A stretch of DNA of 57,800 nucleotides from Cyclobacteriaceae bacterium (GTDB lineage: Bacteria > Bacteroidota > Bacteroidia > Cytophagales > Cyclobacteriaceae), in NCBI GenBank assembly GCA_020832375.1, contig JAFIEW010000010.1, forward strand, positions 1 to 57,800, written 5' to 3'. The translations under genes were made by a program, and so were the position numbers. Positions 29,901-47,297 of the stretch are shown in pieces. Positions within the stretch are counted from its first letter, which is position 1. Each line of letters opens with the position of its first letter. The notes beneath the pieces are model-generated. The model saw only the letters and a program-made list of their open reading frames with translations, ran no database searches and had not been told where the DNA came from.

Positions 29901-32289
29901 CAGTAATAACATTAAAAAAGGTGGGACTGATACTTACTTCAAGATCTGCTGCATCAAGGTTTGGGTTGACCTGAAAAAAGAAGGAAGTTTCTTCAAAGCA
30001 TGAAGAAGAAGCAAAATTACTTGAGCTCCCCCCTTCTAAAAATATCCGATAAACTACTCCAGCCTCGAGTGGATTGGTATTGATTGAAAAAGTATTACCT
30101 ACCACATTGATATTTGTTTCGGTAGCTACTTCGTATTCACCCGGAGAAGTCTGTCGCTGTAAACTTACATTGTAGGACTGCGCGCCACTAAATTCACCTT
30201 CAAGCGCTGTGCCTCCACAAATATTTCTGGGACTTACCTCAGAGCTTGTATTACCAATCTCAGTAAACACTCTTGGGTTGGGTAGTTGAATTTTTGTGAT
30301 CACTACCTCTTCGCTATCGAGGCTACAGCTGCTTCCCTGCTCTTGCGTACGCACGAACAATCGATCATTGCTGGCCACCATACTCGAAGAAATGGCCGCA
30401 AATTCAGTTGCTGAGCTACTAGCTGCTATGGTAGCTAAGACCGTCTCAGTAGCATTTCTTCTCCGCACCAATCTATAAGAAACTGCAATACCCGCATTGC
30501 TATCAAAACTCACAATAAAGTTATCACCATCACAGATTTCATCTGGAATAGTGATGCCTGTCGGTGTGGAAACATCGGCGATACTTACCGAACCACCAAA
30601 ATAATTAATCCCCCTCGCAATGCTCAATCCAGGGAAATTAGCGGTACCACCGCTTCTTCTCAATACTAAGTTCGTACCGGTAGTAAACCCAGCCTCCGGA
30701 CGGACGAACAAATCAGTCAGCGTGATGACATCTTGTGCATTAGTAGCTGATACCGTCAATAAAAGTGTGACTCTCTTACGCTGTACGATCAGCTCTACAT
30801 TAGATATATCTGAAATTCCTCCACCTTGACTGCTTACAGATGCCGAACCTCTATTCGTATCAAATTCAAAACCATCCTCAAGCTCAAGTACAAAAGATTT
30901 ATTTACCCCAACTTGAAAAAGTCCTGTGCTTTGGCTATTGGTTTCAAGAATTTGAACATCTCCTAATGACTCAAAATCGCTAGTATTGGGACATAAATTA
31001 AGTGTAGCCGAAGAAGCAATCACTCCTACGCGAGAAAAATTAACTGCTCTTGAAGTAGTGACTGACCCCTGTGTAAATTGTAAGTCCCCAGTTTGAGATA
31101 GTGGGGTACCATGAATCAGACCCTCGTCAATTTCTAGGCGTAGATTAGCTTGCCCTACTCCCTGATTTACAATAATTTGACTCGGTGAAATAGTACCGTT
31201 GGCAATACTTGCTAAGCTTATATTAGCGGTTGCATCATAGGTTCTATCAAGATTCCCTCTACTGTCCACTGCTCTTAACTCTACCTGAAAAGTACGATTG
31301 ATGGCCTGATTATTTCCGCTAGGAATGAGTATGTCAAAAGCTGTAGCCACCACATTGAGTGTCTTTACGCCGGATAGCGGGTTCACTATCGGGTCGGCTT
31401 CTCTCAATTGGGTAAAATCATCTTCCTGATTTACTCTGAAAGAAAGTAATTCGGCTTGCACCAGCGTTTGATCTTCCACCTGGTTGACAAAGGTGGCTGC
31501 TATACGAAAGCTAGTAGTGGCACCATCTGCCGTTGTACCCAAATTAGCATTTTGAAACTGTACAAAGGGATTATCACTGCCTTCCAAATCACGCGTTAAA
31601 ACCCTCACAAATCCACTACCATCATTCCTAAATAAAACCAGTTGAGAAATAGCGGCCGTATTTTGAACTCGAAAGTTCAACTCTGTTAATCGAGTTTGCA
31701 GTCCATCAACTCCACCATCATTAAGGACAAACTCATAAATGGTAGCTGTATTCCCCTCATTCAATTGACCGACAGGTGTTCGCCTAGGGAAATCAATAAA
31801 ATTAATGGTTTCATCTGGGTTGTCTGCGGCACTGGCAGTGATAAATGCATTTCTTCGGCTTTGTATGGTAAATGGTTCTGATAATGATGCTGCCGATAGG
31901 GTCGTATTCGGTGCGACCACTCTAATATTGTACTGACCACTTGCCGAGATGCTCAAATCGCTAAAATTGATACTTGTACTACCTGGGGAAATCGTACCTA
32001 CCGTGGTACCTTGTAATGAACCTGTAGCACCATCAAGGCGAACTAACTCTAAATTTACCGTCAGCGGATCAGTAGGTGCATCATCAACAGTAACCCTCAA
32101 GGTGCCTATATTTTGATTTTTAAGCCTAATATTTGGCTCTGGTCCAAAAAAAGAAATACTGATATCGCTCGGCAACAGCAAATCTTCAGAAGAACTTTCC
32201 TCAAATAAAGAAAAATGCTCTTCAGCTCGTACGCCAACAATAGAGAAAACTACCGCCAGCACAAAGACCAATGTGTAAACTATTTTCAT
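23956..32289 (-). CDS. Giant T9SS-secreted Ig-like/PKD protein with type A sorting domain
   Basis: A 2777-residue secreted protein. Signal peptide MKIVYTLVFVLAVVFSIVGVRA. Residues about 30-1340 are mixed beta-sandwich modules. Residues about 1350-1975 hold six tandem units of 95-110 residues, each with an early Cys (for example IFCADDQIEF, RVCASEANEV, DICAGSEIPL), a YxPTxxE element, and a late Cys (QTCGAV, GPCSSQ, NVCSPQ), implying one disulfide per unit. Two PKD domains follow (YTWDFGDRT, WIWDFGDGT; about 2060-2220), then a jelly-roll-like domain (YFEDFENGSGGW; 2270-2463), and an Omp28/thioredoxin-like stretch (VLLEHFTNTSSNNF) lacking the CxxC. The last 80 residues are a type A sorting domain (VKLYPNPTSKQATI, GMYFVNLL). 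Likely a surface adhesin or appendage exported through SprA/PorV and cut by PorU. No partner genes for binding are recognised. Confidence 0.85.
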   Translation of the reverse strand: MKIVYTLVFVLAVVFSIVGVRAEEHFSLFEESSSEDLLLPSDISISFFGPEPNIRLKNQNIGTLRVTVDDAPTDPLTVNLELVRLDGATGSLQGTTVGTISPGSTSINFSDLSISASGQYNIRVVAPNTTLSAASLSEPFTIQSRRNAFITASAADNPDETINFIDFPRRTPVGQLNEGNTATIYEFVLNDGGVDGLQTRLTELNFRVQNTAAISQLVLFRNDGSGFVRVLTRDLEGSDNPFVQFQNANLGTTADGATTSFRIAATFVNQVEDQTLVQAELLSFRVNQEDDFTQLREADPIVNPLSGVKTLNVVATAFDILIPSGNNQAINRTFQVELRAVDSRGNLDRTYDATANISLASIANGTISPSQIIVNQGVGQANLRLEIDEGLIHGTPLSQTGDLQFTQGSVTTSRAVNFSRVGVIASSATLNLCPNTSDFESLGDVQILETNSQSTGLFQVGVNKSFVLELEDGFEFDTNRGSASVSSQGGGISDISNVELIVQRKRVTLLLTVSATNAQDVITLTDLFVRPEAGFTTGTNLVLRRSGGTANFPGLSIARGINYFGGSVSIADVSTPTGITIPDEICDGDNFIVSFDSNAGIAVSYRLVRRRNATETVLATIAASSSATEFAAISSSMVASNDRLFVRTQEQGSSCSLDSEEVVITKIQLPNPRVFTEIGNTSSEVSPRNICGGTALEGEFSGAQSYNVSLQRQTSPGEYEVATETNINVVGNTFSINTNPLEAGVVYRIFLEGGSSSNFASSSCFEETSFFFQVNPNLDAADLEVSISPTFFNVITDGSGNPSSDFPTGVVIDASLADGVSVAGSFQFSGEGVIGNRFFPEEVAFTDEDEIKTIPIIATFVTDEGCVSEAVTIEVRAFNGELIFEGLQEGVCLDEDYEIEFEINNVQLVPPAIPFASNQITVSYFSNNTERVLFSITVSRNLVNLLSVNYSSASPLPGTFVVLENFTEGESGNIRVSFSKSDFPLEVDQRGLGQFGIRVIGANESEATQDFFFDKFIDVEPIHPQALCFDCDLPFLSTIGNEFSVANDLKGSTLSVRASRQSDFSGQVLNLPLTSPQANANVLRNLFSAANQIDLENGTPIYLEFSVDNFCSSSATSEITMFRKPPTPDQEITIDGLSLGSFNGFFTIQNQAPAIFRPSQAENTDLVFYHFFNAEGIRVTGAPVSDFEASNALTGAEGNTLFFVERIINGFSSDRHPFVWSVQRPPALNFSGLTEAVCDDDPVGITIEISGPNEERWSNTLALKVLQSTSGDPAEGSLRLIGGNNNTSELLINDLQIAYNAEGIGESFAQPTTLELEYIPTEGESISGEEYRITADFQAVNNLNQNNLSAEASAQAFSELRPQLILIDAEIIEVCSQEEVQLSTSLANGNLNDARFNWEIITGDGEFLWLDENGDEEKGTIAPVIDPIYLPSASELAEGSSDIQFEISVFDINGLCDSDVKIQNLQIDQRALISASVDELICADQNPILLRANLNGAASAASWEVVLDDELSSEEEQAILDRLSSSEVNNGEVTATFELTREEQLTGITYQFKVTTDDPNDNVCGAESDLVTIQVDPIADFEFVQEGLLIDGDDNPFMRLCSPEEISFLVSREGVAESFVWTDNGGGGQFRFATSDNDQISPSYEPSATLLSDGGIIEITATAVDISGQCGEVSKSFTLIIDQEPTITLEQDEYIFCADDQIEFRGSFGGTATNAAWEISPNNPSDLEPQGALTNEVVGNEVIGRYIPTAEEITSGINIIFRLLSSDPSADSDQTCGAVFADAVVRMNQIARVVAGDDIRVCASEANEVQLFGSVTGAVTSGLWTSNGNGTFNPSADALNARYAPSADEILNGAEIILTLTSAEPVGPCSSQIDDLTLVIDQAPILNLIDDFDICAGSEIPLIATLEASLEGQSGNWSIIEGGGQIENTQAVSTIYIPTEEEMSNGADLRFEFVSDQPIDNVCSPQSAILNVRLEPIPKAPSVNEPPIFCQGANIPNISAEGVNIRWYADSELTQQLPATLSGNLISQIDSDIVGVYTFFATQTVAGCESVGELVQIIVNPIPVPDFEVENICFGDETRFVNMTSFEGDGDLFYTWDFGDRTVLPGEENPTHRYVNPANNLTVTLTATSTNEDGSSCSVSTSKNITIADAPRLTLFEESTCLEQGVSFITDFQQTIGSEPDLWIWDFGDGTIIQGPGLTQANQDNPVVGMESTSGTFKRPIHRYQTAGIKTITVTAISGEGVAEDGAIAELGCGITLTRQVGVYPQKRQFPYFEDFENGSGGWISSLDNENTRNSSWTLAPFDLHGEQGQVWRTAASGNTAYSSNERSYVESPCFDFSELERPVMSLKVFVSTDQGLDGAAVMVKSGEMTDYQLLGNLQSGINWYNQANIAGNPGQQAIGQLGWTGLRDEDGFQTARIALDQFAGDEQVKIRIVFGSNADTPSPEAQGFAFDDIFIGERTRKVLLEHFTNTSSNNFLSDMQTVDDFIEESAEELLLVRYHIAEPEPDEIHLVNRADPGARALVYGVEAAPRVSLDGSFDGLAFGNETRAQFELRKLIEASVDLSLQIELQEDQSVIFTCGITAETNLPQADYRLYLAIVEDNVSEQESDASSAVVSHVLRQLLPDAAGTALSTEWFSGSTASHQVIWRESLLSRSENAKVVMWVQNNNTKEILQSEVFGLDLTPQLITSVGDTQFDQVKLYPNPTSKQATIALGGLTFAGSEYLIIDSNGRTLMKERLPAGIDKWHIDISHLKQGMYFVNLLSENGESKVMKLSVIK

Positions 32290-32399: not shown

Positions 32400-33581
32400 T
32401 CAAAACTCACCTGATTGATCAATTCTCATCAAAGCTACCATCCGGTCATTTTCAAAGGCAATGTTTGCCAGTAGCAAGGCTCCTCCATCAGATTGCGGAT
32501 AAATCGCTTCGATACTATTGACATTATTTTGCCCATAGGTGGATCTCCAAATTACTTCTCCTCTGCTATCTAATTTATAAAGCACTGCAAGTGCATTGGC
32601 CTGAACAACTCCTTGCTCTCTACCTCCAAGAAATAATTCCCCTCGACTATTCTCTGCAATTGCATTGGCTGTTTCACCTATATCTAGCCGAACAGTAAGC
32701 TGCTCATTTCCAAAGGCGTCAAGGCTAACTAAAAACATCCGCTGACTCAACCCCGTGCCCACACCACCAGCCAGAAAAAAGCCTCCTGAACGTGATGCTA
32801 ACAACTGTCTAACTCTTGCACCCTCATTCCCTCCAAAAAATAAATCAGCTACTGGAAGCCCTTCTCTATTCGTTCGCACCCACCGCATGCTCTCTCGATT
32901 GTCTCCAGAACGTACTGCAACACCAGAGAAAACAAAGCCACCACGATTGTCTTGAAAAAAGCCACTAGCTAGCGAGTTGCGATTGTTGATCAAGCCAAAA
33001 GATCGCTCCCACAGTCGGTCGCCATCGAGTCCATTTTCAAAAAGATACATTTCTGAAAAGCCATTGCTGTAAATGATTTCTCCAAGCACCACCAGCCTAC
33101 CTTGCTCAAGCTGTAAAACTCCGTAGCCCGCAAGATCATTGTCCTCTGATTCGTATAGCTTACTGACCACCATTTGATAGGAATTAGCATCAAAGGACCT
33201 GACAAAAATTTTCTGTCTACCTCCCTCTGAAGCTGCCTGATGACCTACCACCCACAACTGATCATTTTGTACTGATAAGTGAGTCGCTTTGTATCGACCA
33301 GAGTCTGCCAAATGTAATTTCATCATTTCATTACCCCTATCATCCAAGAAATAAATCACGGGAATGCCAAAGCCCTGATCATCTACAGAAGAATTGATCA
33401 ATACGGCTGTTTTGCCTTCATCAGTTTGTTTAAGTCCTACCGCTTGGTCGACGCCAGCTGTTCCTAAAAACTTGATATAGGTGTTTTCTTCACCCATGAT
33501 AGGTTCAAACTCTTGTGTACACTCCACAAAGCACAAAAGCATGAATAAACTAAAAGAAATACGAATCCCTATATGCATCAT
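32400..33581 (-). CDS. Exported propeller-like protein, possible lipoprotein
   Basis: A 393-residue exported protein of unknown function. An N-terminal hydrophobic segment ends in CFVEC (Cys about 20), which is a poor lipobox but could be lipidated. The body is made of roughly seven beta-propeller-like blades with repeats such as GGFVFSGVAVRSGD, GGFFLAGGVGTG, RGELFLGGREQG and GGALLLANIAFEND, each beginning with Gly-rich strands. Such proteins usually occur as secreted or surface binding modules. The ATG overlaps the stop of the upstream TPR/barrel gene (ATGA at 33578-33581), so the two are translationally coupled. The 110 bases to the giant secreted protein gene contain repeat and palindrome sequences. 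Confidence 0.65.
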   Translation of the reverse strand: MMHIGIRISFSLFMLLCFVECTQEFEPIMGEENTYIKFLGTAGVDQAVGLKQTDEGKTAVLINSSVDDQGFGIPVIYFLDDRGNEMMKLHLADSGRYKATHLSVQNDQLWVVGHQAASEGGRQKIFVRSFDANSYQMVVSKLYESEDNDLAGYGVLQLEQGRLVVLGEIIYSNGFSEMYLFENGLDGDRLWERSFGLINNRNSLASGFFQDNRGGFVFSGVAVRSGDNRESMRWVRTNREGLPVADLFFGGNEGARVRQLLASRSGGFFLAGGVGTGLSQRMFLVSLDAFGNEQLTVRLDIGETANAIAENSRGELFLGGREQGVVQANALAVLYKLDSRGEVIWRSTYGQNNVNSIEAIYPQSDGGALLLANIAFENDRMVALMRIDQSGEF

Positions 33582-34615
33582 TTGATAATTTTAGGAAGAT
33601 AAATAGGCATAACATACCCTACTTGAAGGCTTAAAAGATCTTTGCGTACATCCGAATCGATATAGGCATAATTAAAAAGCAACTCTTCATTACTCAGCCT
33701 ATTTTCAGGATTGTTAATCAATCCCAAAGCATACAAATATCTCACTTCCGACCGCAGATACCCCTTCCCTATTTTGTAATCAACCCCAAATGCAAAGTTT
33801 GCATGTGGGATGAGGCGACTTCTTTGATCCATTAAATTAATGCTAGGCCCGGTTACATCTCGACCATCTAACCTCGTGCGCTCCATATCGGCCGATGCAG
33901 CAAGTACAAAACTCATACTTGGACCAGTCGCCGCATAGACCTTTAATTTAGAACTTAGTTCTTGTTGGTATTTAATTAATAAAGGCAGATCAACTTGAAC
34001 CCTACTTTCAATCATAGCCACGCTCGTAAATTCATTAAGCTCCCTTCGGTACTCATCAAAAATACCATGAAAGCCAGGGTCGGAGTAGAGGCTCCATGTT
34101 TTAGAAAGTGGGTATTCTACCAGCATCCCAACTGAAAAACCTGGGTTTGACTGAAAGACATGCCTTCCAGAATTTAGATTTTCTAGGCCAAAGCTTTGCA
34201 CAAGCCTAGTATTGGTAGCATTTACCCCAGCTTTAGCGCCGTAGTAAAGCACAGGTCGCGTGCGAAACCGCTCATAAAGCTGCTCAAATTCCTTGGGGTC
34301 AGCATCTTCTCTTAGTCGATACTCTGGGTCGGACTTTAAAAGTTTCGCCATAGCAATCTCTGCCTTCTGCGGCTCATCCAAATACAAAAAACTCAAGGTC
34401 AATAGGCGATAAGCCTGTGCTTTTTCCTCATCACTATACTGACCAGACTCCAAGCAATCATTAAGCAAGTCCTCCAAGGTATTAATCCTACCCTCCTCAT
34501 ATGCGGTTTGAGCTTGTCGTAACCGCAACTCACAACTTTGCTGCGCACACAAAAAGTCACTCCCCACAAGAGGGAAAAGCATGAGCCAGCACAGCATATA
34601 TTTCTTTTTTACCAT
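33578..34615 (-). CDS. TPR plus outer-membrane barrel protein
   Basis: A 345-residue exported protein. Signal peptide (MVKKKYMLCWLMLFPLVGSDFLCA), then two to three TPR-like helix pairs at about 28-110 (LRQAQTAYEEGRINTLEDLL, AEIAMAKLLKSDPEYRL), then a small PorT/OmpX-like beta barrel (YYGAKAGVNATNT, FSVGMLVEYPLS, LLSLQVGYVMPIYLP). Similar TPR-barrel proteins occur near surface-protein genes in Bacteroidota, where they may help assembly. Four bases overlap with the downstream propeller gene. It lies 142 bases downstream of the STAND NTPase gene on the same strand, with a hairpin repeat between, so read-through from that operon is possible but unproven. Confidence 0.65.
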   Translation of the reverse strand: MVKKKYMLCWLMLFPLVGSDFLCAQQSCELRLRQAQTAYEEGRINTLEDLLNDCLESGQYSDEEKAQAYRLLTLSFLYLDEPQKAEIAMAKLLKSDPEYRLREDADPKEFEQLYERFRTRPVLYYGAKAGVNATNTRLVQSFGLENLNSGRHVFQSNPGFSVGMLVEYPLSKTWSLYSDPGFHGIFDEYRRELNEFTSVAMIESRVQVDLPLLIKYQQELSSKLKVYAATGPSMSFVLAASADMERTRLDGRDVTGPSINLMDQRSRLIPHANFAFGVDYKIGKGYLRSEVRYLYALGLINNPENRLSNEELLFNYAYIDSDVRKDLLSLQVGYVMPIYLPKIIK

Positions 34616-34667
34616 CGGCTTACAGTTTGGTGCATTCGTATGAAAAAATAATCTTCATCTTATTGAT

Positions 34668-34741
34668 TTAGCTTCGCTTTTTTTGTTTTTCATTTTCGTG
34701 GGATGCTGACACGAGTCGTCATCCCTACTTTATTAGCTTCG
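34668..34741 (+). repeat. T-run/GGGATGA dispersed repeat, copy c, with direct repeats
   Basis: The core TTTTCGTGGGATG continues into an inverted repeat GGGATG (34700-34705)/CATCCC (34720-34725). The block is flanked by the 9-base direct repeat TTAGCTTCG at 34668-34676 and 34733-34741. Direct repeats of this length could be a target duplication from insertion of a small element. It lies between the STAND NTPase and TPR/barrel genes. Confidence 0.45.
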
Positions 34742-34757
34742 TTTTCAGCGCTACGAT

Positions 34758-37700
34758 TTACGGTTCACAGGTTGCCTCAAAAGGAACATCAGCACCGATA
34801 TACCGATCCCACTCGAGCAGTGAGAGCTTATTTTGCTCTATTTCGCTACAAATAATATCTCCCATAAATGCAGCTCGAGTAGGCCACTTTCTGATAATTC
34901 TATCCCTGCAGCCAGCCAGCAAAAACTTGCTATCTTGACTAAAAGCAATACTCCACACCCAGTCGTCGTGGTCGCTCAATACAATTGGCTGATCGTTTAA
35001 ATTATCCATTTTCCAAAGGCGCACTGTCCTATCAAAGCTAGCGGTTGCCATCTGCATCCTATCAGGACTAAAGGTGATCTGATTGATGAGTGCGCCGTGG
35101 CCTTCAAGGTTTTGCTCTATTTTACCCTCTTTAATATTGTAAACCAATAAATTGCCCCTATCATTACCAAAAATGAGCTCGCCCGCTTTAGGATGAAAAG
35201 CCAAGGCATGTAAGGCATCGCCTTTCTCTGAGGTATAAATGGTTTCTTTATTGAAGTTATCTTTCAAATGAATCAAGATCGCCTCTCCGTTATTTTGACT
35301 CAACGCAAGATATTGCTCGGTAGGATCTACAGTAAATTGATTGACTTTATGATTTGCTTCATAAATGAGTTGTTGCTCTCCTTGATCGATAAGGTAGATC
35401 TTGCGACTGTCACCCAAAAGAAATAACCGATCATTTTTTTGTCCCGCTACAAGCTGTTGAATGTTTTTAACTGGTGGTGATGATAGGGTTTGAACAGTAC
35501 CTTTCTCAAAATTAAAGGCAATAAGTATTGACCCACTGCCAGCTAGAAATATTTTATCTCCATTTTTAGAAAGAGCACCACTTCTGAAGATTCCTTCTTG
35601 GTTGAGCAGTTCTTCAGCTATTATGTTTTGCTCTGATAAATCCCATCGAATCATCTTACCATCACTACCTAAGCTGTAAATTATATTTGCTTGATTTGAG
35701 CTTAGAATAGATCGTACATTATCCGTATGCCCAATCAGCTGATTATACCCTTCTTCTTTTACAGCCTTTACGGCATAGTACAATCCATCGTAGATATCAT
35801 TATCATAAATGTTACCATCATACCGCTGGTGAAAGATGAATGCCTGCTGCGCAAGTAGCGCTTTTCGAGTACTTTGAGAAATTTGGGTAGATTTTATTGC
35901 CAAAGATTTAGCAATAGAAATCATTCGCTCTCTTTCTGCTTGTAAAGCGTTTCTTTCAGCTTCTTCTGCTTTCAGGATAGCAAAATCTTGAGCGGCTTCA
36001 GCCTCTGCCTTTCTATCCTCAGCGATTTTAGTTTGGGATTTAGCCTCTTGCTCCGCCTTTTGCGCGAGTTCCTTTTGAAAATCAGCGGCACGTCTTTGCT
36101 CCTCTGCGCGCTGAGCCTCAAAAATCGCTTGCTCTTGAGCCCTCTCCGCATCGACACGTGCTTCATTTGCTCTCTCGCTTTCTTCTTTTGCTCGTTCACT
36201 TTCTCGTTCCGCACGGCGCTCATTTTCGATTGCTATTTGTGTTTGCTGAGCTGCAATTTCAGCTTCACGCTCCGCTTTCACCTGCTGAGTAAAGGCATAA
36301 ATCAAAAATAAAATCGATACTACCGTGGCTGCAGTCATGACAAGCACAGTAATTCGAGCTCTTTGAAGTGCTTTTTTCTGCATGAGCTCTTTGATGCGCT
36401 GCTCCTTCTCGTACTCTTCGCGGCAAAACTCCAAAAACCCCATAGTACGCTCAAAAGCACTGTCAAATCTTACCCCCCAATCAAGGGTAGGACGCTGCTT
36501 CTCCTGCCAGTTGAGTGCTATTTGTAGATCTGGTGGCCTCCATAGTCCAGCCTTTCCTATTTGATACATAGATGCTGCCTCAGCAAGGCGCAAATACATT
36601 TGTACAGATTCAGCCTCCTCGTTGACCCAGTTTCTTAATCTCACCCATATACGCATCAAGCTTTCATGAGAAATATCGATAATAGAATCTTCTGTAAGCT
36701 TCTGTGGCTCCGCTGGGATCAGCAATGATCTACCAGACTTTCTAAAGACATGAATCACTTCGCTGATTTGTTCTAGATCAGCATTTGCGATCTGGGCGAT
36801 CTTCCTAAGTGGTGTTGGTCTTCTTATTCCATCTTTATCGCCTCTTTTCTCCGTGATAGTTTTAAATATGATGGCACAAAGCTCCTTTTGTCTTTCATTG
36901 AGTTCATGGTAGGCCTCATTGGCATGCTGAGAAAGTGCCTCCGCCATACCACCAATCGACTCGTAGTGATGAATGTCAAGTGGCTCATTTACCTCCCTAT
37001 TTTTTGTCCAATAGTTCCAGGTTCTCATCAGCGAGTGTTGCAAAATTGGCAGCTGATCTGTACGATTACCAAGGTCGTTGAGCAGTTGCTGTATGAGCCG
37101 TTCTGTAATCATTCCACCACCAACCGCCACAGGTCCAAGGATAGCGTCTTTCTTTTGCTCACGGGTCATCTGAGGAATAAGGTAGTGACTGTCGTTGATG
37201 TACTTGGTAAGCAAAGGAAAGTGTGCGCAATCTCCGATGAAATCTGATCTCATGGTAATCGCCACATATATAGGCACCTCTTCTTGTCTTACCGCCTCTA
37301 GTAACAAATTGACGTAGGCCATAGCACTATTCTCACCACTACGATCAGCATCTTCACTTTTGTAGCGAAATAACTCCTCAAATTGGTCTACTAAGATCAA
37401 AAAGTTTTTCTTACCGAAGTCAGGACTACGCTTGATTGCCTGCACAAGACCATGAGAAGTAGACTTTAATAAAGCTCCCGCTATGGTTGTACGGATCAGC
37501 TGCTCTTCCTCCTCCGCATTTCCATATGAATTGAATTCTTTGGCAATAGAATGAGACAGACTTTGAATAGGCTTTGCGCCAGGTCGGGTTACGATAACCT
37601 TCCAGCCATTCATCTTGTCGGCGATAAATCCTCCATGAAGATTAGGTAGCACACCGCAATATACAAAGGATGACTTACCACTGCCAGAGGGACCTATCAC

Positions 37701-37880
37701 ACCCACAAATCTATTCTTGGCTAACTTATCGAGTACCTCATCGCTTTGACCTTCTCTACCAAAAAACAGGTGACTTTCTTCTGGCTTGAATGGCCTCAAC
37801 CCAGGGAACGGGTTGAAAAAAGGGCTCATCTGCTCTGTTATCTGTGAGGGTCTAAAAGGATAATTTCGCTCTTCTTTCAT
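34758..37880 (-). CDS. Membrane-anchored STAND NTPase (nSTAND1) with coiled coil and WD40 repeats
   Basis: A 1040-residue signal-transduction ATPase. The N-terminus reads NPFPGLRPFKPEESHLFFGRE, diagnostic of the nSTAND1 family, then Walker A GPSGSGKS (63-70) and Walker B LILVDQFEE (161-169). A winged-helix region follows to about 480. One membrane segment (about 508-528) has the basic run KKALQRAR on its N-side. Then comes an Ala/Glu/Arg-rich coiled coil (about 530-640), and WD40 repeats from about 713 (IGHTDNVRSIL, GHGALINQITFSPDRMQMATASFDRTVRLW without long gaps, SDHDDWVWSIAFS). The positive-inside rule puts the NTPase in the cytoplasm and the WD40 sensor in the periplasm. The start overlaps the stop of the TIR-like gene by ATGA. 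STAND proteins act as switches in defence and signalling; the trigger and output here are unknown. Confidence 0.85.
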   Translation of the reverse strand: MKEERNYPFRPSQITEQMSPFFNPFPGLRPFKPEESHLFFGREGQSDEVLDKLAKNRFVGVIGPSGSGKSSFVYCGVLPNLHGGFIADKMNGWKVIVTRPGAKPIQSLSHSIAKEFNSYGNAEEEEQLIRTTIAGALLKSTSHGLVQAIKRSPDFGKKNFLILVDQFEELFRYKSEDADRSGENSAMAYVNLLLEAVRQEEVPIYVAITMRSDFIGDCAHFPLLTKYINDSHYLIPQMTREQKKDAILGPVAVGGGMITERLIQQLLNDLGNRTDQLPILQHSLMRTWNYWTKNREVNEPLDIHHYESIGGMAEALSQHANEAYHELNERQKELCAIIFKTITEKRGDKDGIRRPTPLRKIAQIANADLEQISEVIHVFRKSGRSLLIPAEPQKLTEDSIIDISHESLMRIWVRLRNWVNEEAESVQMYLRLAEAASMYQIGKAGLWRPPDLQIALNWQEKQRPTLDWGVRFDSAFERTMGFLEFCREEYEKEQRIKELMQKKALQRARITVLVMTAATVVSILFLIYAFTQQVKAEREAEIAAQQTQIAIENERRAERESERAKEESERANEARVDAERAQEQAIFEAQRAEEQRRAADFQKELAQKAEQEAKSQTKIAEDRKAEAEAAQDFAILKAEEAERNALQAERERMISIAKSLAIKSTQISQSTRKALLAQQAFIFHQRYDGNIYDNDIYDGLYYAVKAVKEEGYNQLIGHTDNVRSILSSNQANIIYSLGSDGKMIRWDLSEQNIIAEELLNQEGIFRSGALSKNGDKIFLAGSGSILIAFNFEKGTVQTLSSPPVKNIQQLVAGQKNDRLFLLGDSRKIYLIDQGEQQLIYEANHKVNQFTVDPTEQYLALSQNNGEAILIHLKDNFNKETIYTSEKGDALHALAFHPKAGELIFGNDRGNLLVYNIKEGKIEQNLEGHGALINQITFSPDRMQMATASFDRTVRLWKMDNLNDQPIVLSDHDDWVWSIAFSQDSKFLLAGCRDRIIRKWPTRAAFMGDIICSEIEQNKLSLLEWDRYIGADVPFEATCEP

Positions 37881-39325
37881 AGTACTCCTGAATTAGTTTG
37901 AAGCAATGATAATAACTGCTTATGTGCTTTTTGATCGGCTAAGTCGATTATATTTAGGCTTTGATACTGTACCTCCGTTTGAAATTGCTTAGATGCTTCC
38001 TCTGGATGATGACAGGCTAAAATTCGGCTTTTCACAGGTTTCAGCCTCCCTAGTCCAGGCGCCTTTACTGTATCTAAAACCTTCATTTTTACCCATTCTT
38101 TATCGGTATTTCCACAAATGACGATTGCGTGATCAAAGCTTCTCAATCGATCAATATGACGCTTACGAATATCCATCAACTCCCCAGAAAACTCAGGAAC
38201 TTCAACTTTTAGCCCACTGCTCTCAAGTTGTAGTTTGATATTGACTGCCTCCTCCTCATCTTCCTTATTAAAAATGAGGTAAACACTATCACCAATATCT
38301 TTCTTCTCTAAGCTGTTATCTTTGAAAGAATCAATGTGAGCCTGCTTGTATTTTTGTATGCATATACCCTTAAATTGCTCAATAGGCTCATTGAATATCT
38401 CTGTTCGAAAGAGGTACTTTGGATCTCTTTTAATATTATTGATTTGAAGAAGCAGCTCTTCACTTGCTCTTTCGGTACTTTTAGGTATCCACAAGACTCT
38501 AGAAATATTAAGTTTTTTTCTTTCAATCAGATCGGTCACTATTCGATTTTTCTCCAGAGCAATACCTAGCTTACTTCCTTTCACCTTTCTACCAGGTAGA
38601 GACCCGATTAGGTGTATGCTTAGGTTACAATGATCTAAGCACTTTTCAACCTCTGTTTCTAATTTCTCAAGATCGTCACTCAACTCGCCAAGCGGAAGCA
38701 CATTGACCCCGATTCGATGAAACTCCCTTTTGATAATATTTCTATCAACACTCAAGTCGTGACCTGTTTCCGCCAAAAAGACCGAAGGAAGTGGCCTTGT
38801 AGGGTCTAACGCGGGGATCGGACGGTGAGAGATTTCATAAATATCAAAACAAAGATCAAGTAGGTTCATCCAAAAATAGGCGTCACTATCGGAAGAGAAA
38901 AAATCCTTAATGTTTTTAGGTTTGTTCTCGGCATCTCGAGTATAAAAGTTATAAGAACTTGAACCTTTCAATATGTGCGGCACCTCAATACCCTCGTAAG
39001 GGTACTTGACAATTTTTATAATTCTTTTCTTCTGGTAATTCTCAGAGTCTTGATTATCAGCAAAAGAATGAAGATCGCGCTCATACTGCTTACTTTGTAG
39101 GTATTCAGGACTTACCACCACCAATACCACATCCACAATTTCTCTGAGTTTATAATCATTGGTATAGTCCACCTTACGAAGCACATTCAGCTTTTCCCCT
39201 ATAGATTGCTCGTATGCCATTTCTAGAAAGGATAAAAATCGACTTACCCAGCCTGCTCCTTCAAGCTTTGAAGATGTATTGTCGAAGTCGTGGTAGGAAA
39301 TATATACATTAGACAGCTTACTCAT
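37877..39325 (-). CDS. Protein with three tandem TIR-like domains
   Basis: A 482-residue soluble protein with three TIR-like flavodoxin-fold units. Unit 1 (about 5-150) starts NVYISYHDFDN, has GWVSRFLSFLE, and VVVSPEYLQSKQYERDL (70-85). Unit 2 (about 180-330) starts SVFLAETGHDLSVDRNIIK and has GVNVLPLGEL. Unit 3 (about 345-475) starts SVYLIFNKEDEEEA and has DHAIVICGNTDKEWVKMK. In NADase TIRs the helix after the Ser-rich strand carries WCxxE; here it reads QYERD (80-84) in unit 1 and WVKMK in unit 3, so the catalytic Glu is Asp or Lys. Scaffold or adaptor function is therefore more likely than NAD cleavage. Thirteen bases separate it from the transporter-like gene upstream, and it overlaps the STAND gene downstream, so the three form one operon. 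Confidence 0.75.
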   Translation of the reverse strand: MSKLSNVYISYHDFDNTSSKLEGAGWVSRFLSFLEMAYEQSIGEKLNVLRKVDYTNDYKLREIVDVVLVVVSPEYLQSKQYERDLHSFADNQDSENYQKKRIIKIVKYPYEGIEVPHILKGSSSYNFYTRDAENKPKNIKDFFSSDSDAYFWMNLLDLCFDIYEISHRPIPALDPTRPLPSVFLAETGHDLSVDRNIIKREFHRIGVNVLPLGELSDDLEKLETEVEKCLDHCNLSIHLIGSLPGRKVKGSKLGIALEKNRIVTDLIERKKLNISRVLWIPKSTERASEELLLQINNIKRDPKYLFRTEIFNEPIEQFKGICIQKYKQAHIDSFKDNSLEKKDIGDSVYLIFNKEDEEEAVNIKLQLESSGLKVEVPEFSGELMDIRKRHIDRLRSFDHAIVICGNTDKEWVKMKVLDTVKAPGLGRLKPVKSRILACHHPEEASKQFQTEVQYQSLNIIDLADQKAHKQLLSLLQTNSGVL

Positions 39326-39338
39326 AATTAATAAATTT

Positions 39339-42300
39339 TTAACGACCGATCAACTCCACCTGAAACTGATTTGACTTCATAAAATCTAGGAAGGCAGCAT
39401 ACAAATCACTATCTAAACCCATCAAGTTAATCAATTTGCCATCGTCTAAAGCTAAAATCGTTGTATTTGGCTTAGCTGTTGCGCTAATAAGTTTTGGATG
39501 AAAAAAGTTGGAATAACCTTCAGCACGAACTATTTTTTTTAAGTTTCCTTCACCAAAATTGAGTTCAAGCTCTCCCTTTATTACAATAAATGTCCCTAAA
39601 GAACTGCTTATCTCTTCACTTTCATTGATTGTATGTAGCCCGCTGATACTTGCTATGCTTACAAGAAGCTGACTGTTGAGTTGAGAAAAACTAGATACCT
39701 TCTTTAAGAAAACTACCGTTTCAAAAACAGAAGGAATTGACTTTTCGGGTTTTTCTTTAATACCACTATTCTCCATTAGTGTATCAAGCTCACTATAATC
39801 CTCTTTTGGTAGCCTCAGTAGAAGTTTCTGACAGCTGTCGGGATCCCTTTTGAATATAAGCCAAGCGGCCATGGATCGAATTAAGATATCTGGATGGAAG
39901 ATTTGACCTTCGAGATAATGAGTGATATCCATGTTTTGTGTATAAGAAAAGGCATAAATCGCACAAGCCTTCGTCCACCTATCGGTCAATTTATTTTCAC
40001 GCATAATCAGGTGATGATATACCGTTCTTAAACCAATTGTTTCTGTAGGATAAATACTCTGTAAGCGATTAATCTTTTCGTCTAGACTAATATCATCGAG
40101 CAAAGGAAGTAGTTTATCTTTAATCTCCGGCTCTAAGAATATATCCAACATCTCAATGGCATAGGCAAGACTCTCTGAGTCTTCAGAGTCCATATTTTCC
40201 TTAACTAGCATAACTGTTTTTGCATCGTAAAGAAAAGAGAGGTAGCTATAAATTTTATTGTAATTACCCGCAAGCTCTTCTTCAAGTGCACTTCTTAGGT
40301 GACCCGTAATCTTGGTCTTAGGAATCGCTTTAATAGCCACTAAATTCCATAATGTTTTCCCAATTTCATTTTCTAAGAGCGTTACTACTTTAGAGTAATC
40401 CTTACCCTGAGCTTTAAATTCATACTGAGTTAAAAAATAAAGAATATGCCGATGAACATCTGCATCGGGGTATTCTAATTTTCCTACTAAAAAGGCTAGG
40501 CTAAGGGGCGAACCTATTCTTCCGACCACATCGATCATTCTGAGCATAGCAAAATTCACAGATTTTCTCTTCTGAAAAACTTGGTCTATGTAGGGGATGA
40601 TATCATCACCAATCTTAATCAGGGTTGAGGCAGTATACTCACTGATGGAGCTTTGATCAAGAAAATCAACTAAAAGGCTGTAAGTTTCATTTCTTTTCAA
40701 AAAACCTGCTGCAAGAATAGCCGCCTTTCGGATTTCTGCATCGTTATCGCGCAAAAGCTCCGGCAAAATAAAAATATTCTCATCTTTCAAATGCTTACAA
40801 AGTATTTGAAGTGCAAGCATTCTTTCAGCTGCATGAATAGAGCCTGCAAGCTGATTTAATTCAGAAACACCCAAATCATCTTTAAGACCATAACCTGACC
40901 CCAAAGTCTCAGTAAGCATTTTGTTAATTTTTTCTATACTCAAGGGATGAAGACTCTCGCTATCTGAATCACTCAATCGAGGTGCCATGCGGTATATTCT
41001 CATTTGATTTTGGATAAAATCATGAGCTTCTTCTGATAAACCTTCCAGCACAGTAGGGGTTTTTGCGATTTGTTCAAAAGTGAAAGGATCTACCTTTTCA
41101 ATCAATTTAAATACCGATATTTGATATTCTTGATTTACATCTACAAGATTATTTAGCGTAATAGTTTCTTTAATATGTGCTTTTTCTGATGCCTCTATCA
41201 AGCTGTTTTCTGAGCTCGAGGCCTCTTGCAAATTTGACTTGATAGTAGTCCGGTACTTTTCATATAGCTTGACTACAAGTACTCCCCAAAAAAATACTAG
41301 AGGGATGAGGATAAGGAAAGTGTTTACAAAGCTTAGCAGTTCAAATGTCTCAATGACGAAAAGTAAAAGACCTGCAGCAAAACCAGCAAACACAGTAAAA
41401 GTCCCTTCTACTTTTGTTTGAGCGTCAAGTCGCACAGCACTTTTCAGCGGCATGAAGTACAGTTTAAAAGCAGGTTCATCGAGCGCATCTCTGAGAGACT
41501 CGCCAAAAAGCTTAGTACCAGCCACGATGATAAAAAAGAAAATATAAGTATCTGCCTGTGATGAGTCACCAAAAAATGTACCCATGGCCAAGGCAAGTAC
41601 AACCATGATGCCTAAAAGCACAGGTGTGATGAAAAGAGACACTTTTAAACCATAGTTGGCAATGAGGTTATCAGTAACGAAAGTTTGAAATAAAAATGCG
41701 AAAATGACAATGGTAGCCTCAAAGAGCGATAAAAAGGAAGCAAGGTCTTTTTCATTGGGGAATTGATTTTCCGCCACAATCAAGAAAGCATAGTCTACAA
41801 ATTCCAATACTAAAACAGCCATTACCACAAAAAGCACCATATAAAGAAGGTACTGACTCTTCAGCATGTCTTTAATAGAAAGGGTTTTTGCCTCCTTGTA
41901 TGAGGTGGTTTTTCCTTCTGGTGTATCAATTTTAAATTTTTTACTGATTACAAACACCGTAATCATCATGAAAATCGCACTCGCTGCGGAAATCAAAAGC
42001 AAATTTGGAACATTGCCCAAAACAGGAAGAAGAAAGGGAATAGAAAACAGGGCGACTAAAGTGGCAATAAGGGTTCCCGTATCAATGCCGCCTATAATTC
42101 TTTTGGCTTGACGTAGGTCGTAGATACGATTGAACAAACCCCAAAAGATTAAAACTGCAATCACTTCAAAAGGAGTAGCAATGACAAAAAACATGAAAAT
42201 AGCAATGGATGGATCTTCCATTGAAAAATAAAGACTGTATAAAAACAAAATAGATACCACCATCAGGGCGATAAGAAAAGTAGCTACCCAACCAAAAGGA

Positions 42301-42533
42301 AAACGTGTCTGCAAAAAAGACATCAAAAAAGTAAGACCGATACCTAAGAGTCCTGCGCCGGTGATACCTAAGGCAAGTAAGTTTCCCCCAAAGAAATCGA
42401 GAAATAATGCTGTAGAACCTACAGATAATGTCGCTAAGAAGATGCCCATAGAAAAACCATTACTCAAAAGCCATAAGGCCTCGGCTTGTTCGTCTTCTTT
42501 GACATTGAGTATCTGTAGTAATTTGGAAATCAT
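39339..42533 (-). CDS. MFS nucleotide-transporter-like/HEAT/cNMP-binding-like fusion
   Basis: A 1064-residue membrane protein. Residues about 15-425 hold around twelve hydrophobic segments resembling the ATP/ADP translocase (Npt/TLC) branch of MFS, including IFWGLFNRIYDLRQAKRIIGG and GTKLFGESLRDALDEPAFKLYF. Residues about 440-900 are helical HEAT-like repeats (LRDNDAEIRKAAILAAGFLK, DVHRHILYFLTQYEFKAQGK). The final 110 residues resemble a cyclic-nucleotide-binding domain (LKKVSSFSQLNSQLLVSIA, FIVIKGELEL), but the phosphate-binding GE...RxA cassette is not recognisable. It starts the operon with the triple-TIR and STAND genes. A membrane receptor or scaffold reading a nucleotide is a reasonable guess; true transport is not shown. 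Confidence 0.72.
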   Translation of the reverse strand: MISKLLQILNVKEDEQAEALWLLSNGFSMGIFLATLSVGSTALFLDFFGGNLLALGITGAGLLGIGLTFLMSFLQTRFPFGWVATFLIALMVVSILFLYSLYFSMEDPSIAIFMFFVIATPFEVIAVLIFWGLFNRIYDLRQAKRIIGGIDTGTLIATLVALFSIPFLLPVLGNVPNLLLISAASAIFMMITVFVISKKFKIDTPEGKTTSYKEAKTLSIKDMLKSQYLLYMVLFVVMAVLVLEFVDYAFLIVAENQFPNEKDLASFLSLFEATIVIFAFLFQTFVTDNLIANYGLKVSLFITPVLLGIMVVLALAMGTFFGDSSQADTYIFFFIIVAGTKLFGESLRDALDEPAFKLYFMPLKSAVRLDAQTKVEGTFTVFAGFAAGLLLFVIETFELLSFVNTFLILIPLVFFWGVLVVKLYEKYRTTIKSNLQEASSSENSLIEASEKAHIKETITLNNLVDVNQEYQISVFKLIEKVDPFTFEQIAKTPTVLEGLSEEAHDFIQNQMRIYRMAPRLSDSDSESLHPLSIEKINKMLTETLGSGYGLKDDLGVSELNQLAGSIHAAERMLALQILCKHLKDENIFILPELLRDNDAEIRKAAILAAGFLKRNETYSLLVDFLDQSSISEYTASTLIKIGDDIIPYIDQVFQKRKSVNFAMLRMIDVVGRIGSPLSLAFLVGKLEYPDADVHRHILYFLTQYEFKAQGKDYSKVVTLLENEIGKTLWNLVAIKAIPKTKITGHLRSALEEELAGNYNKIYSYLSFLYDAKTVMLVKENMDSEDSESLAYAIEMLDIFLEPEIKDKLLPLLDDISLDEKINRLQSIYPTETIGLRTVYHHLIMRENKLTDRWTKACAIYAFSYTQNMDITHYLEGQIFHPDILIRSMAAWLIFKRDPDSCQKLLLRLPKEDYSELDTLMENSGIKEKPEKSIPSVFETVVFLKKVSSFSQLNSQLLVSIASISGLHTINESEEISSSLGTFIVIKGELELNFGEGNLKKIVRAEGYSNFFHPKLISATAKPNTTILALDDGKLINLMGLDSDLYAAFLDFMKSNQFQVELIGR

Positions 42534-42970: not shown

Positions 42971-45900
42971 TTGAAAGTTAATTTTAAATATAAAGCGTTT
43001 GCATATACAATACCTTGTGATCCAGATTCCTCTAATCTAGCATACACCTCATGTAGTGTGCTTACTAGAAAGAGTGAAGCGTTTGAACAGTTTTTGAAAG
43101 CCCACGGATTGGAAAGAGCCGAACTCACCCATGTATTTCTGATGCCTCAACTCAATAACAGAGAAATTCAAAACCTTTCAGTTTATTGCCCTATACTTGA
43201 ATCAAGCTATCAATGCCACCTCATTCCAATATCGAAAACAGAGGTACAAGTAAGTATGCTTCTCGCTGAAGATAAAAAATTAGCAGATGAATTGCCTTTT
43301 GCTTATTTTTCTTATAGTGTGAATAAGAAAGAATTTCAAGTGATCAACAAAGCGGCGCTTTCCTTTTTAGGGATGACAAATAAACCTGATCGCCCTATCA
43401 AAATTGAAGAAATAAACATTTTCAATGAGGAAACAATAAAAAAAATAAACCGACAGTTATCCAGCAAAGCTAATTCTAGCAATAGAGTTTATGAAATACA
43501 AATCGAAAGTGAGCAAACACTACTTTTCAACTCGTACAAACTAACAGATGCTAGCGGTGAGATAAGATGGTCTGCAACCATTGAAGATATCAGTCATAAA
43601 AAAAGACGAGACGCATACCACGAATTAGAAAAAGAACTACCTGAAATTATTAGTCATTTAATTAGTGATGGATTACTTATCGTCAATGAAAGATTTAATG
43701 TAGAATATTGTTCAAAGTACATGAACGAGCTAGTTGGATGGCATGATAAAACCAAGAATATCAATTTTAATGAAAAAATACACCCTGAAGATCTCCCTTT
43801 TTTCCTGAAAGAATGTCAAGCTCATTTACACCAAAAAAGCTCTTTGCCCTCAGCAATTAGATTACGAATAAGATCAGAAACTGGCGACTATCAATCTATT
43901 GAGTGTAAAATGTCTTATTTAGGCGATGGCAAAAACCATCGTTTAGTTTTATTGTGCAGGGCTGATGATAGTCTTGTTCGTACTTTTAAGAGCTTGAAGC
44001 AAAGTGAAGCAGATAAAAATGCAATCCTCAACTCTCTGCCTTACTTATTTTTCATACTGGATGATGATGGTAAAATTATAAGCAGTCATTCTCACAAAAG
44101 TCATTCATCTTATTTTGATAAATATCCTTTGATAGGAAATTCAATCCATCATATAGCGAAAGGTAATTTTAAAAAAGAATTTCAGAAATTATTAGAAGAG
44201 TTAAAAACACAAACTAAAAGCAAACCCATAGCGTTTCAGATACCTGACAATGAAGGGAAGGAAGTCTATTATGAGGGTTATTTCTCTCGCCTAATCGGAA
44301 GTAAAAACATTTTGTTCACTGCTCATGATATTTCTTCAAGAGTATTTTTAGACAATCGAATAAAAATTGAAAGAAAAAGACTTCGCCGACTAATTGATTT
44401 GATTCCACACAGAATCTACCTGTTAGATGAAAACTATCAGTTTATCTTGGCCAATAAGCAAACAGCGAAGGATTTTGGATTCTCTAAGGTAAAAGATTTA
44501 ATCGGTAAACATGAAAAAGATGTGCGCCTTATAAATCCATTTGACAGTTACTATAAGAAGATCGAAAAACGAAATCGATTGATACTTAAAGAAGATAAAG
44601 ACTTATCAATCGATGGAAAGAAAAAATTATATCATACCTCTCGATTACCATTTACCTATGGAGGAAGTAATCAAAATCTGGGCTTACTGAATGTGTCACT
44701 TGATGTTACCGAAACTAAAGAGTTAACTCATTCGCTTAGTCGAAAGTCGGACTTACAAAACCTTATATTAAACCTTGCAGGAACTCTTTTAGGTCTCAAT
44801 TTGAACCAAAGTAAATACACTGTAACCAATATTCTAGCTTCCATTGGCCATTTCGCCAAGCTTTGTAGAGCTTACATTTACATAAAAAATGAAGAAACTA
44901 GAAAATTAGAGAAACTATACTATTGGAAAAATATCAATGTAAAAGCGGATGTCTCTTCTGTATTCGATAAGGAATATGAATCTGGAAAATGGCATAAAGA
45001 TTTTCTTTCTGGAGGAACTTTAATTCTAAATGATATTAATTTTATACCAGACTCAAATCCTGCCAAGGAAATACTTACTCGTCATCATGTCAAGTCCATT
45101 TTAACCATACCTATACTCAATGAAAGTAAATATCTAGGCTTCATAGGCTTTGAAAGAACTTTCAATAGTGCTCCATGGACATCAGATGAACTGTCTCTTT
45201 TAGGGATTATGTCAGAATTATTTAAAAGTGCTCATCTACGCTTGCTTTATGAAAAAGACCTCATGAATGCAAAACAAAGTGCGGAGAAAGCTAATCAAAC
45301 CAAATCTAATTTCTTAGCAAATATGAGTCTTGAGATTCGTACCCCTATGAATTCAATTTTAGGGATGAATCAATTGTTATTAGATTCCAAATTATCAGAG
45401 AAGCAAAGAAACTTTGCCGAGGCGATTGAAAAATCAGGTAAAAACTTATTAGAAATTATTAATGACATCCTCGACTTATCGAAATTGAACAATGATAAGA
45501 TCATAATCAAGGCTACTAGTGTCGACCTAATAGAATTGATGGATAGAATCATGAATACCACAGGCATCAAATCTTCCGAGAAAAACCTAGACATAGGGTA
45601 CATCATTCATCCAAATTGTCCACAATATATAAAGACGGACCAGTATCGTTTGCACCAAGTACTTATAAACCTTTATTCGAATGCGGTGAAATTCACGAGT
45701 GAAGGCTTTGTTTTTGGAAGGTTTTACCTTAGGAAAGATTTGAAAAAACAAAACTTCCTTTATTTTGAGTTGAAAGATACTGGCTGCGGCATAAAAAGAT
45801 CTGATCAAAAGCGCATCTTCAATCAATTTGAACAGGTAGATAATGAAAGGAATCGTCAATACGAAGGCACAGGTTTAGGCTTAGCTATATGCAAGCAAAT

Positions 45901-47113
45901 TATTGAGATGATGGGTGGTAAAATTGGTTTAAGCAGTGAATTAGGAGTAGGTTCGATGTTTTGGTTTCAGGTACCAGTTACGCTCATGCAAGATAAACCA
46001 GCAGAGTCTAGCATCACTCAACTTCAAGATAGTGATTTAAAAATAACCTATGAGGGACAATCACAAGTACACTCTTTAGTAATAGAAAATATCGCAGAAA
46101 GATTAAAAATACCATTTGGAAAGGATGTAAAAAATAATGACAACATAAAATTTAAAACGCTAGACCAAAAATCAACTCAAGCTGAAATTAATCAAGTAGG
46201 GAAAAATACATACTTCATATACTCTAATTGGAATCAAGCAAAATTCAATATAGCAAGCAATCGTAGTGTTAATAACCCAATTCAAATTCAACAAATAATA
46301 GAAAAAATCAATCCAACTTTACAAAGGGAAAAGCAGGAAGAAGTAGATAACCAAAATAACAATTCATTTGATTATCTTTCTTCTGTGAAACTACTAGTAG
46401 CTGAAGACAATAAGATGAACAGAATTCTTATTGATAATTTGTTAAGAGATATTGGAATAGTGGCTGACTTTGCTCTAAACGGTATTGAAGTAATTGAAAA
46501 GTATAACGAAAGTAAGCAATATGACATCATACTTATGGACTGTCAAATGCCTAAGATGGATGGTTTTGAAGCTACCGCTCGTCTCAGAGAAATATATGAG
46601 GAAAATAGCCCCGTGATTATCGCAGTTACAGCACATGCTCTTGAAGGTGATCGAGAAAAATGTATTGCTGCAGGCATGGACGATTATATTGCAAAACCTT
46701 ATAACAAAAAGAGCATTGAAAACTTACTAATCAAATGGATGAAACAAAAGATCGACACTAGAGAAAGCAAAAAATATCAAAGTATAAACTATGAAGGCTT
46801 TTTGGAAGAACTAGATCAGAACGAAGAATTAGCGAAGGAGCTTCTTAAAGAACTGGCTAATGAACTAAAAAATAAGCGGGAAAAAATTACTGATGCTGAA
46901 AATGCGGGTGCTACGGCAGATTTTTATCAAGAAATTCATGCGCTAAAAGGAATCGCTTTAAATTTTCAAGCCCACTTAATTGAAAGTAAGTGTAATAGTA
47001 TTGAGAAGGCTCAATTAGCCATTAATCATCCTGATATATTGACACTTCTAGAAGATTTAAATGAGGCTTTGTCTGTAACAATTCAAGAACTTGAAGAAAA
47101 GGGAGCCCTTTGA
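42971..47113 (+). CDS. Soluble hybrid histidine kinase with altered H-box
   Basis: A 1380-residue cytosolic sensor with no membrane segments. Order: unassigned N-terminus, PAS units at about 105-205, 218-335, 345-455 and 465-585, GAF about 595-755, HisKA about 770-840, HATPase about 880-1000, receiver about 1133-1253, Hpt about 1265-1375. The ATPase boxes are intact ([26 protein letters not shown]). The receiver phospho-site Asp 1190 ([11 protein letters not shown]) and Hpt His 1323 (IHALKG) are present. The H-box reads MSLEIRTP instead of MSHEIRTP: Leu 787 (codon CTT, 45329-45331) replaces the autophosphorylated His. The TTG start at 42971 is uncertain; the first ATG is 43142. It diverges from the TIR/STAND operon, so a functional link is possible but unproven. 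Confidence 0.88.
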
Positions 47114-47265: not shown

Positions 47266-47268
47266 CTA

Positions 47269-47297
47269 CGTGAACACCCTTGGTCACGATTTTTTTT
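47269..47297 (+). terminator. Terminator of tRNA-Leu
   Basis: CGTGA (47269-47273) pairs with TCACG (47284-47288) around a 10-base loop, followed by A and eight Ts. It sits three bases after the tRNA. Confidence 0.7.

Follow-up and report, generated by a model that had tools for sequence, protein, structure and literature searches.

A conserved six-gene cluster around a transmembrane STAND NTPase in Cyclobacteriaceae: a candidate trans-envelope receptor system

The six-gene cluster

The sequence studied here (the window) is a stretch of 57,800 nt from contig JAFIEW010000010.1 of Cyclobacteriaceae bacterium (GCA_020832375.1). An earlier note, made from the letters of this sequence, had flagged three adjacent genes in it as a three-gene operon: gene 1 ('MFSH', 39339-42533), gene 2 ('TIR3', 37877-39325) and gene 3, a STAND NTPase (34758-37880). 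Our analysis confirmed these coordinates and the minus strand for all three, as well as the spacing, with a 13-base gap at 39326-39338 and a 4-base overlap at 37877-37880. The trio is present as stated, but it is not the whole unit, since genes 4-6 also belong to it. It forms the front half of a larger conserved cluster of six genes, which runs from 42533 down to 23956 and adds an outer-membrane barrel, a putative lipoprotein and a giant surface protein. We read this cluster as a candidate trans-envelope STAND receptor system.

The STAND NTPase and its topology

Gene 3 encodes a protein of 1040 amino acids (aa). Pfam identified an nSTAND1 domain (PF20703, 5.4e-94, aa 24-440) and WD40, and the Walker motifs, which read GPSGSGKSS and LVDQFEELF in gene 3 itself, are conserved in alignment A8. 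A hydropathy scan found one transmembrane (TM) segment at about aa 512-530 (36291-36347, minus strand); with alignments A4 and A8, this gives a protein in which the TM segment is followed by an Ala-heptad helix (about aa 531-690) and then by the WD40 propeller. The earlier note was thus right to call gene 3 a transmembrane STAND NTPase with WD40.

The topology signals were established in 105 homologues, after 15 of 120 had been dropped for a length outside 980-1120 aa. All 105 have a TM segment within residues 470-560, and in 101 it is the sole one. The flanks of this segment carry a mean net charge of +4.2 before it and −0.15 after it, the N-terminal side being the more positive in 104 of the 105. 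This predicts that the NTPase is cytoplasmic and that the WD40 propeller lies in the periplasm, because a TM segment is present and its NTPase-side flank is positive. Between the TM segment and a motif that precedes the propeller lie 156-178 residues (98 homologues in which the motif was found), and the stretch after the TM segment retains Ala about every seven residues. A helix of ~160 residues would measure about 24 nm if fully helical, which would be long enough to reach the outer membrane.

STAND proteins are mostly regarded as sensors that work in the cytoplasm and detect invaders or danger. Gene 3 resembles the nSTAND1-WD40 NTPases (the bacterial NLR-like proteins and, by analogy, Apaf-1) in having a Walker-motif NTPase and a C-terminal WD40. 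It differs from them in that its TM segment and ~160-residue helix would place the propeller in the periplasm, and in that its gene is linked with those of a type IX protein and an outer-membrane barrel.

The barrel, the lipoprotein and the giant surface protein

Gene 4 ('OMPb', 33578-34615, minus strand) encodes 345 aa with a signal peptide, a TPR-like domain and a barrel. Pfam matched OMP_b-brl_2 (2.7e-9) and two sub-threshold families, with no TPR match. In the AlphaFold2 model (pLDDT 90.5), helices at aa 28-114 precede a barrel in which 8 long strands were counted. The TPR-like label comes from these modelled helices; among relatives only L157 gave a Pfam TPR match to the domain, and this was sub-threshold. 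The barrel gave OmpA/OmpW matches and is of that type. We also considered the barrel as a relative of BamG and rejected this, the match being local and reaching only 3.9e-4, while BamG is described in PMC12611786 as a FadL-like barrel. The barrel of gene 4 is small and a plug is absent, so that the protein lacks the plug, large barrel and STN domain of a TonB-dependent transducer.

Gene 5 ('lipo', 32400-33581, minus strand, 393 aa) overlaps gene 4 by 4 bases in the window. The window copy had no Pfam match, and a relative in L150 matched the DUF5122 beta-propeller, so the family is described here as a putative propeller-like lipoprotein. Lipobox and surface-export signals were scored by loose patterns. 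Of 95 family members, 83 showed a lipobox-like site by such a pattern; 60 of these 83 matches have an acidic residue at most 6 positions after the Cys, and some of the sites are plainly wrong.

Gene 6 (23956-32289, minus strand) encodes a giant of 2777 aa with Pfam matches to PKD_4, Omp28 and Por_Secre_tail. The last of these is a type IX secretion sorting domain (PF18962) at aa 2700-2771 (23977-24192, minus strand), matched at 5.1e-10, and at 1.2e-11 when the last 150 aa were searched. The genome also encodes SprA (TIGR04189, above cut-off). A type IX substrate would be expected to carry a sorting domain and to occur in a genome with a type IX system, and gene 6 is predicted to be such a substrate.

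Conservation of gene order

A relative of gene 2 was found in 37 genomes of a same-order sample of 148, spanning 22 of 80 genera. Our locus count used 40 of the 46 non-window gene 2 matches (L032-L071; one match left out was later read as L158). The count for gene 1 excludes L061 and L071, which lie at contig ends, and that for gene 5 excludes L055. STAND directly follows gene 2 in 38 of the 40 loci (exceptions L045 and L053), the barrel follows STAND in 37 of 38 (exception L071), and the lipoprotein follows the barrel in 32 of the 36 testable loci. Gene 1 lies at most 2 genes upstream in 28 of 38, and L032 has a HEAT-cNMP-only variant in addition. Twenty stretches were extended, 19 from the 40 same-order loci and one from the TIR-less L152; the next protein, of 1525-4304 aa and in each case with a Pfam type IX tail, was present in 17 of them.

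The order was also established in loci from named genomes, including Fulvivirga, Marivirga and Chryseolinea among others. The best 80 of 180 were taken and 79 were parsed, L252 being dropped because an antisense open reading frame (ORF) masked its TIR gene. Among testable cases, gene 1 was at most 2 ORFs upstream in 77/77, with STAND in 78/78, the barrel in 69/69 and the lipoprotein in 66/66. In 57/57 the lipoprotein was followed by an ORF of 600 aa or more on the same strand, its tail usually lying beyond the end of the locus. Median gaps at successive junctions are 13, 5, 3 and −4 bases. One and the same gene family lies at most 3 genes upstream in 54 of 68 named loci, which indicates a stable chromosomal site in relatives.

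Chance adjacency was rejected on this fixed order in all testable named loci. The idea of the earlier note that the genes are kept together is therefore borne out, and in the adjacency check the homologues were not found mostly apart.

Partner swaps and the TPR-like module

A STAND profile was searched against a phylum sample of 395 genomes, two candidates being scored per genome, and the counts that follow are among the matches listed. Matches to the helix-WD40 part comprised 12 full-length STAND proteins and 2 with the TM-helix-WD40 half only (L148 and L263). An exported protein with the TPR-like domain adjoins 14 of these 14. This neighbour is the small barrel in the window's family and a 164-aa protein in L263, while in L140, L141, L142, L144 and L148 the domain forms the N-terminus of an 863-895-aa protein. 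In both loci where the latter was scanned (L140 and L144), Pfam identified a TonB-dependent receptor, with plug and barrel and no STN match. The STAND gene of L148 seems, on a by-eye reading, to be split by a transposase-like ORF.

The opposite was found for six strong matches to the NTPase and TM part only (L153, L276-L280). None of the six has a TPR-like neighbour, and all six have a match to the TIR3 profile next door, that of L279 covering the last TIR only. In L280 the NTPase gene itself is without a TM segment, and a nearby gene carries TM and TPR repeats. The pairing of TIR with a transmembrane nSTAND1 was seen again in L158, L159 and L283. Gene 2 thus tends to accompany the NTPase half, and the TPR-like domain accompanies the periplasmic half. 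This observed split is as expected for the receptor, because its contact partners would sit on opposite sides of the membrane.

When the TPR-like domain alone was used, 24 N-terminal matches were listed and 22 kept, L264 and L273 showing no TPR-like match. STAND is adjacent in 6 of the 22, a transmembrane Ser/Thr kinase is adjacent in 7 and nearby in 3, and the other 6 have neither. The seven loci in which exported TPR-like proteins adjoin transmembrane Ser/Thr kinases are L147, L149, L157, L260, L265, L270 and L271. Three of the adjacent kinases were scanned and have PEGA domains, and a PP2C match lies close by in L147, L149, L157 and L260. These loci are possibly a kinase version of the same receptor idea. 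Phylum tallies for A2 (189/395) and A3 (283/395) are inflated by generic barrels or Crp-like domains and were not used as system counts, and alignment A1 was too divergent to yield a search pattern.

In TonB-dependent transducers with a FecR-type relay, an outer-membrane protein with an N-terminal periplasmic domain works with an inner-membrane partner. The cluster is similar in that its outer-membrane protein has an N-terminal periplasmic domain and stands beside an inner-membrane partner, and L140 and L144 even have a TonB receptor. However, a TPR-like domain is found here instead of STN, and a STAND ATPase instead of an anti-sigma factor.

These loci also bear on a different reading, in which the cluster would serve solely to export the giant or to assemble it on the surface, the barrel and lipoprotein being chaperones or anchors and STAND a regulated ATPase or a means of quality control. 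Partner barrels are known for giants elsewhere (SprF/SprB), and the giant with its type IX tail comes next in the window as well as in 17 of the 20 extended stretches. The barrel, too, weakly resembles the type IX component PorT/SprT (NCBIfam, 1.6e-7; 30.9 bits, where the cut-off is 125). However, the modelled barrel has only 8 strands, and an 8-stranded barrel is too narrow for export. The Pfam matches of gene 4 include no PorP/SprF family. Moreover, STAND is kept where its neighbour is a TonB-dependent receptor or just a short TPR-like protein, and an export machine has no obvious need for the TIR and cNMP parts. We regard this reading as rather unlikely, and the receptor system as the better account.

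The triple TIR protein

Gene 2 encodes 482 aa with three TIR-like domains. Its AlphaFold2 model (mean pLDDT 79.3) has three Rossmann-like units, which were compared with known structures by VIA-align. The top match of unit one was the MyD88 TIR (Z 13.3, 136 residues, 2.8 A). Unit two matched the CMP N-glycosidase BcmB (Z 10.8) and then the RPP1 TIR (Z 10.3), and unit three matched TIR-STING (Z 11.6), with CheY-like receivers level at Z 11.4. Pfam placed TIR_2 on the third unit (1.4e-6), and Foldseek with the whole model gave no match at E < 0.001. A TIR-like identity is well supported for units one and three and less firmly for unit two. Of the triple TIR of the earlier note, units one and three therefore stand, on MyD88 and on TIR_2 and TIR-STING; unit two does so less firmly.

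Residues at the catalytic position were counted in 117 sequences, 3 of 120 having been dropped for a length outside 430-530 aa; the positions were placed by what we take to be the spacing of the NADase motif. In the third TIR the Glu position is occupied by Lys in 115 of 117, and in the first TIR position 84 is variable (Asn 26, Thr 20, Leu 17 and Glu 8 of 117). A conserved catalytic Glu was thus not found in the first or third TIR of these sequences under the assumed spacing. The second TIR has Asp in 84 and Glu in 22, together 106 of 117, and the window copy has Leu. We take gene 2 to be a scaffold rather than an NADase, because the catalytic Glu is replaced in the third TIR and variable in the first. 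A TIR NADase effector as the principal explanation was rejected on these counts, the second TIR being the exception. TIR scaffolds such as MyD88 provide the best structural match of the first TIR, but gene 2 differs from them in having three tandem TIR-like units and in being part of a bacterial operon.

The domains of genes 2 and 3 invite the question of defence, in which outer-membrane parts would sense an attack by phages or other bacteria and the STAND/TIR pair would trigger a cell response. STAND and TIR are known as domains of conflict systems (PMC8195603, PMC10907252), and pairs of a TIR3-like protein and a transmembrane nSTAND1 recur with other extracytoplasmic parts. Against this, with the PADLOC (2023) models none of genes 1-3 had a match below 1e-3 (best E 0.0013), and none of ten other window proteins, the barrel included, had one below 1e-5. 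The stable chromosomal site and the residue counts in the first and third TIR also argue against defence, although the second TIR keeps its Asp/Glu. A mobile defence island was rejected on the site and on the PADLOC result. A defence role is the less likely explanation for the cluster and in our opinion an improbable one.

The NTT-HEAT-cNMP membrane protein

Gene 1 encodes 1064 aa with NTT, HEAT and cNMP-binding-like parts and 11 TM segments by hydropathy scan. Pfam matched TLC (4.2e-8) and HEAT_2 (1.7e-9) in the window copy and gave no cNMP match; the cNBD was assigned through the family profile A3 only. Against PDB, this profile matched the ADP/ATP carrier 9j3n (7.7e-22), cNMP domains of cGMP-kinase (2e-30) and HEAT-type alphaRep structures. 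The composition given in the earlier note, transporter-like with HEAT and cNMP-like domains, was accordingly recovered. The NTT, HEAT and cNBD parts all lie on a single chain, as in the NTT-HEAT-cNBD proteins of Major et al. 2017 (PMC5381601). Gene 1 shares their three-part architecture but differs in its setting, as the passages of that paper on these fusions do not connect them with TIR or STAND genes or with genes of the outer membrane.

The second copy in the window's own genome (L032) has a variant gene 1 in which the NTT part is swapped for an unrelated membrane region (5 TM, hydropathy) and HEAT-cNMP is retained. This locus continues with a TM-SpoIIE gene, whose product weakly matched a propeller, and then with TIR3, STAND, a barrel, a lipoprotein and an ORF that runs off the end of the stretch. 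In L050 and L060 a HAMP-SpoIIE phosphatase gene stands between genes 1 and 2, as the TM-SpoIIE gene does in L032, and in L140, L141 and L144 gene 1 is followed by a propeller-type histidine kinase.

The profile matches to ADP/ATP carriers and cNMP domains would suit a cluster for nucleotide uptake or nucleotide-gated signalling, with gene 1 as the sensor and the rest regulating it. Nevertheless, 9 of the 38 testable same-order loci lack gene 1, L032 replaces the NTT part while keeping HEAT-cNMP, and the cNMP pocket of the window copy appears degenerate by eye. This explanation is very unlikely, and the nucleotide signal proposed in the earlier note, which had the fold names as its sole support, is not upheld.

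A proposed trans-envelope receptor

That the cluster is a trans-envelope STAND receptor system is the reading we favour, with modest confidence. While the partner-swap pattern, the membrane topology signals, the order of the genes and their domain make-up are established, we infer the physical contacts, the signal and its direction, the switching of the NTPase and the output. The giant type IX protein and the lipoprotein at the cell surface would report a surface state (contact, ligand or assembly success) to the barrel. The periplasmic TPR-like domain of the barrel would then dock on the WD40 propeller, held across the periplasm by the ~160-residue STAND helix. Docking would free the WD40 autoinhibition, so that the cytoplasmic nSTAND1 could bind ATP and multimerise, and the triple-TIR protein would join the NTPase oligomer. 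The signal would pass to the membrane NTT-HEAT-cNMP protein and also, where the cluster of a genome encodes one, to a histidine kinase or a SpoIIE-type phosphatase.

The earlier note had proposed a membrane complex that senses a nucleotide or envelope signal and switches the STAND ATPase through TIR contacts. The membrane complex, STAND as the likely switch and the sensing of the envelope are kept here. TIR contacts as an obligatory step are given up, in view of the TIR-less loci L150-L152, L140-L142 and L144, and the sensor parts are the barrel, the lipoprotein and the type IX protein, all of which had gone unseen. A precedent for a surface protein with a type IX C-terminal domain as a proposed inward relay is PorA of P. 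gingivalis (PorA-PorXY-SigP, PMC7712824), which in this respect resembles gene 6. That pathway differs in using a two-component system and a sigma factor, and the abstract describing it mentions no STAND or TIR.

Several observations weigh against the receptor. Its parts are not always together: no TIR gene match was found in the stretches L150-L152, L140, L141, L142 and L144, so that TIR is not obligatory, and gene 2 is present in only 5 of the 14 helix-WD40 loci listed, TIR being absent in 9. Gene 1 is absent in 9 of 38 same-order loci and so is not obligatory, the lipoprotein is missing in 4 of 36 (L054, L057, L067 and L068), and the giant in 3 of 20 extended stretches (L176-L178). The TPR-like adjacency of 14/14 is not a census, as two candidates per genome were scored and the count is among the matches listed, and 9 of the 22 TPR-like loci have no adjacent STAND or kinase. 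Among the NTPase matches, the one in L279 comes with a weak match to WD40 and, next door, an OMP_b-brl_2 barrel that lacks the TPR-like part. The NTPase-only matches in L281 and L282, which are weaker, come without a TM segment and without TIR, and no match to TIR3 was obtained in G471. The named loci are mainly from one clade, and their order shows stability, not 77 independent events. In the window, STAND and the barrel are separated by 142 bases (34616-34757, minus strand) with a hairpin at 34700-34725 and no T-run after it, whereas the median gap in 70 named relatives is 3 bases; co-transcription across this junction in the window is inferred from relatives. Finally, the PorT/SprT resemblance of the barrel fits a secretion role too. 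Our confidence was lowered slightly because of this resemblance and L279.

A full-text literature search limited to open-licence PMC papers found no description of this gene set, in line with the statement of the earlier note that no system with the trio was known; such absence is weak evidence. We tentatively suggest that the cluster may represent a new kind of trans-envelope signalling, in which NLR-like STANDs spanning the periplasm use an exported TPR-like domain to read a receptor in the outer membrane. As an interchangeable module, it would also be coupled to Ser/Thr kinases and TonB-dependent receptors in Bacteroidota, and tandem pseudo-TIRs would act as a cytoplasmic relay. If so, a STAND ATPase with an outer-membrane sensor and a type IX protein would provide a route from a surface event to an NLR-type switch in bacteria with two membranes. 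TPR-like/WD40 and TIR/NTPase would be testable partners in Fulvivirga, Marivirga and Chryseolinea.

Related loci and neighbouring genes

A second, TIR-less cluster is present in relatives (L150, L151 and L152), with NTT-HEAT-cNMP, STAND, barrel and lipoprotein genes and a long next ORF. In L152, the one checked of these three, the long ORF carries a type IX tail. L053 has a gene 2 relative without STAND (6271-7764), preceded by an HtrA-like trypsin-PDZ gene. In L055 a GH18 gene lies directly upstream of the TIR gene, in the usual place of gene 1, and a contractile injection system tape measure protein (PF19268, 1171-3897) is encoded on the opposite strand, four ORFs further up from the TIR gene. 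The short nSTAND1 genes of L281 and L282 adjoin PAAR-like genes on a by-eye reading, and are perhaps linked to a contractile injection system.

Divergent from the operon in the window is a large PAS-GAF hybrid histidine kinase gene with a receiver domain (42971-47113), and the two could have a common control region. A tRNA-Leu at 47184-47266 overlaps the start of the ORF at 47239-48708, which suggests that the mechanical start of this ORF is probably too early.

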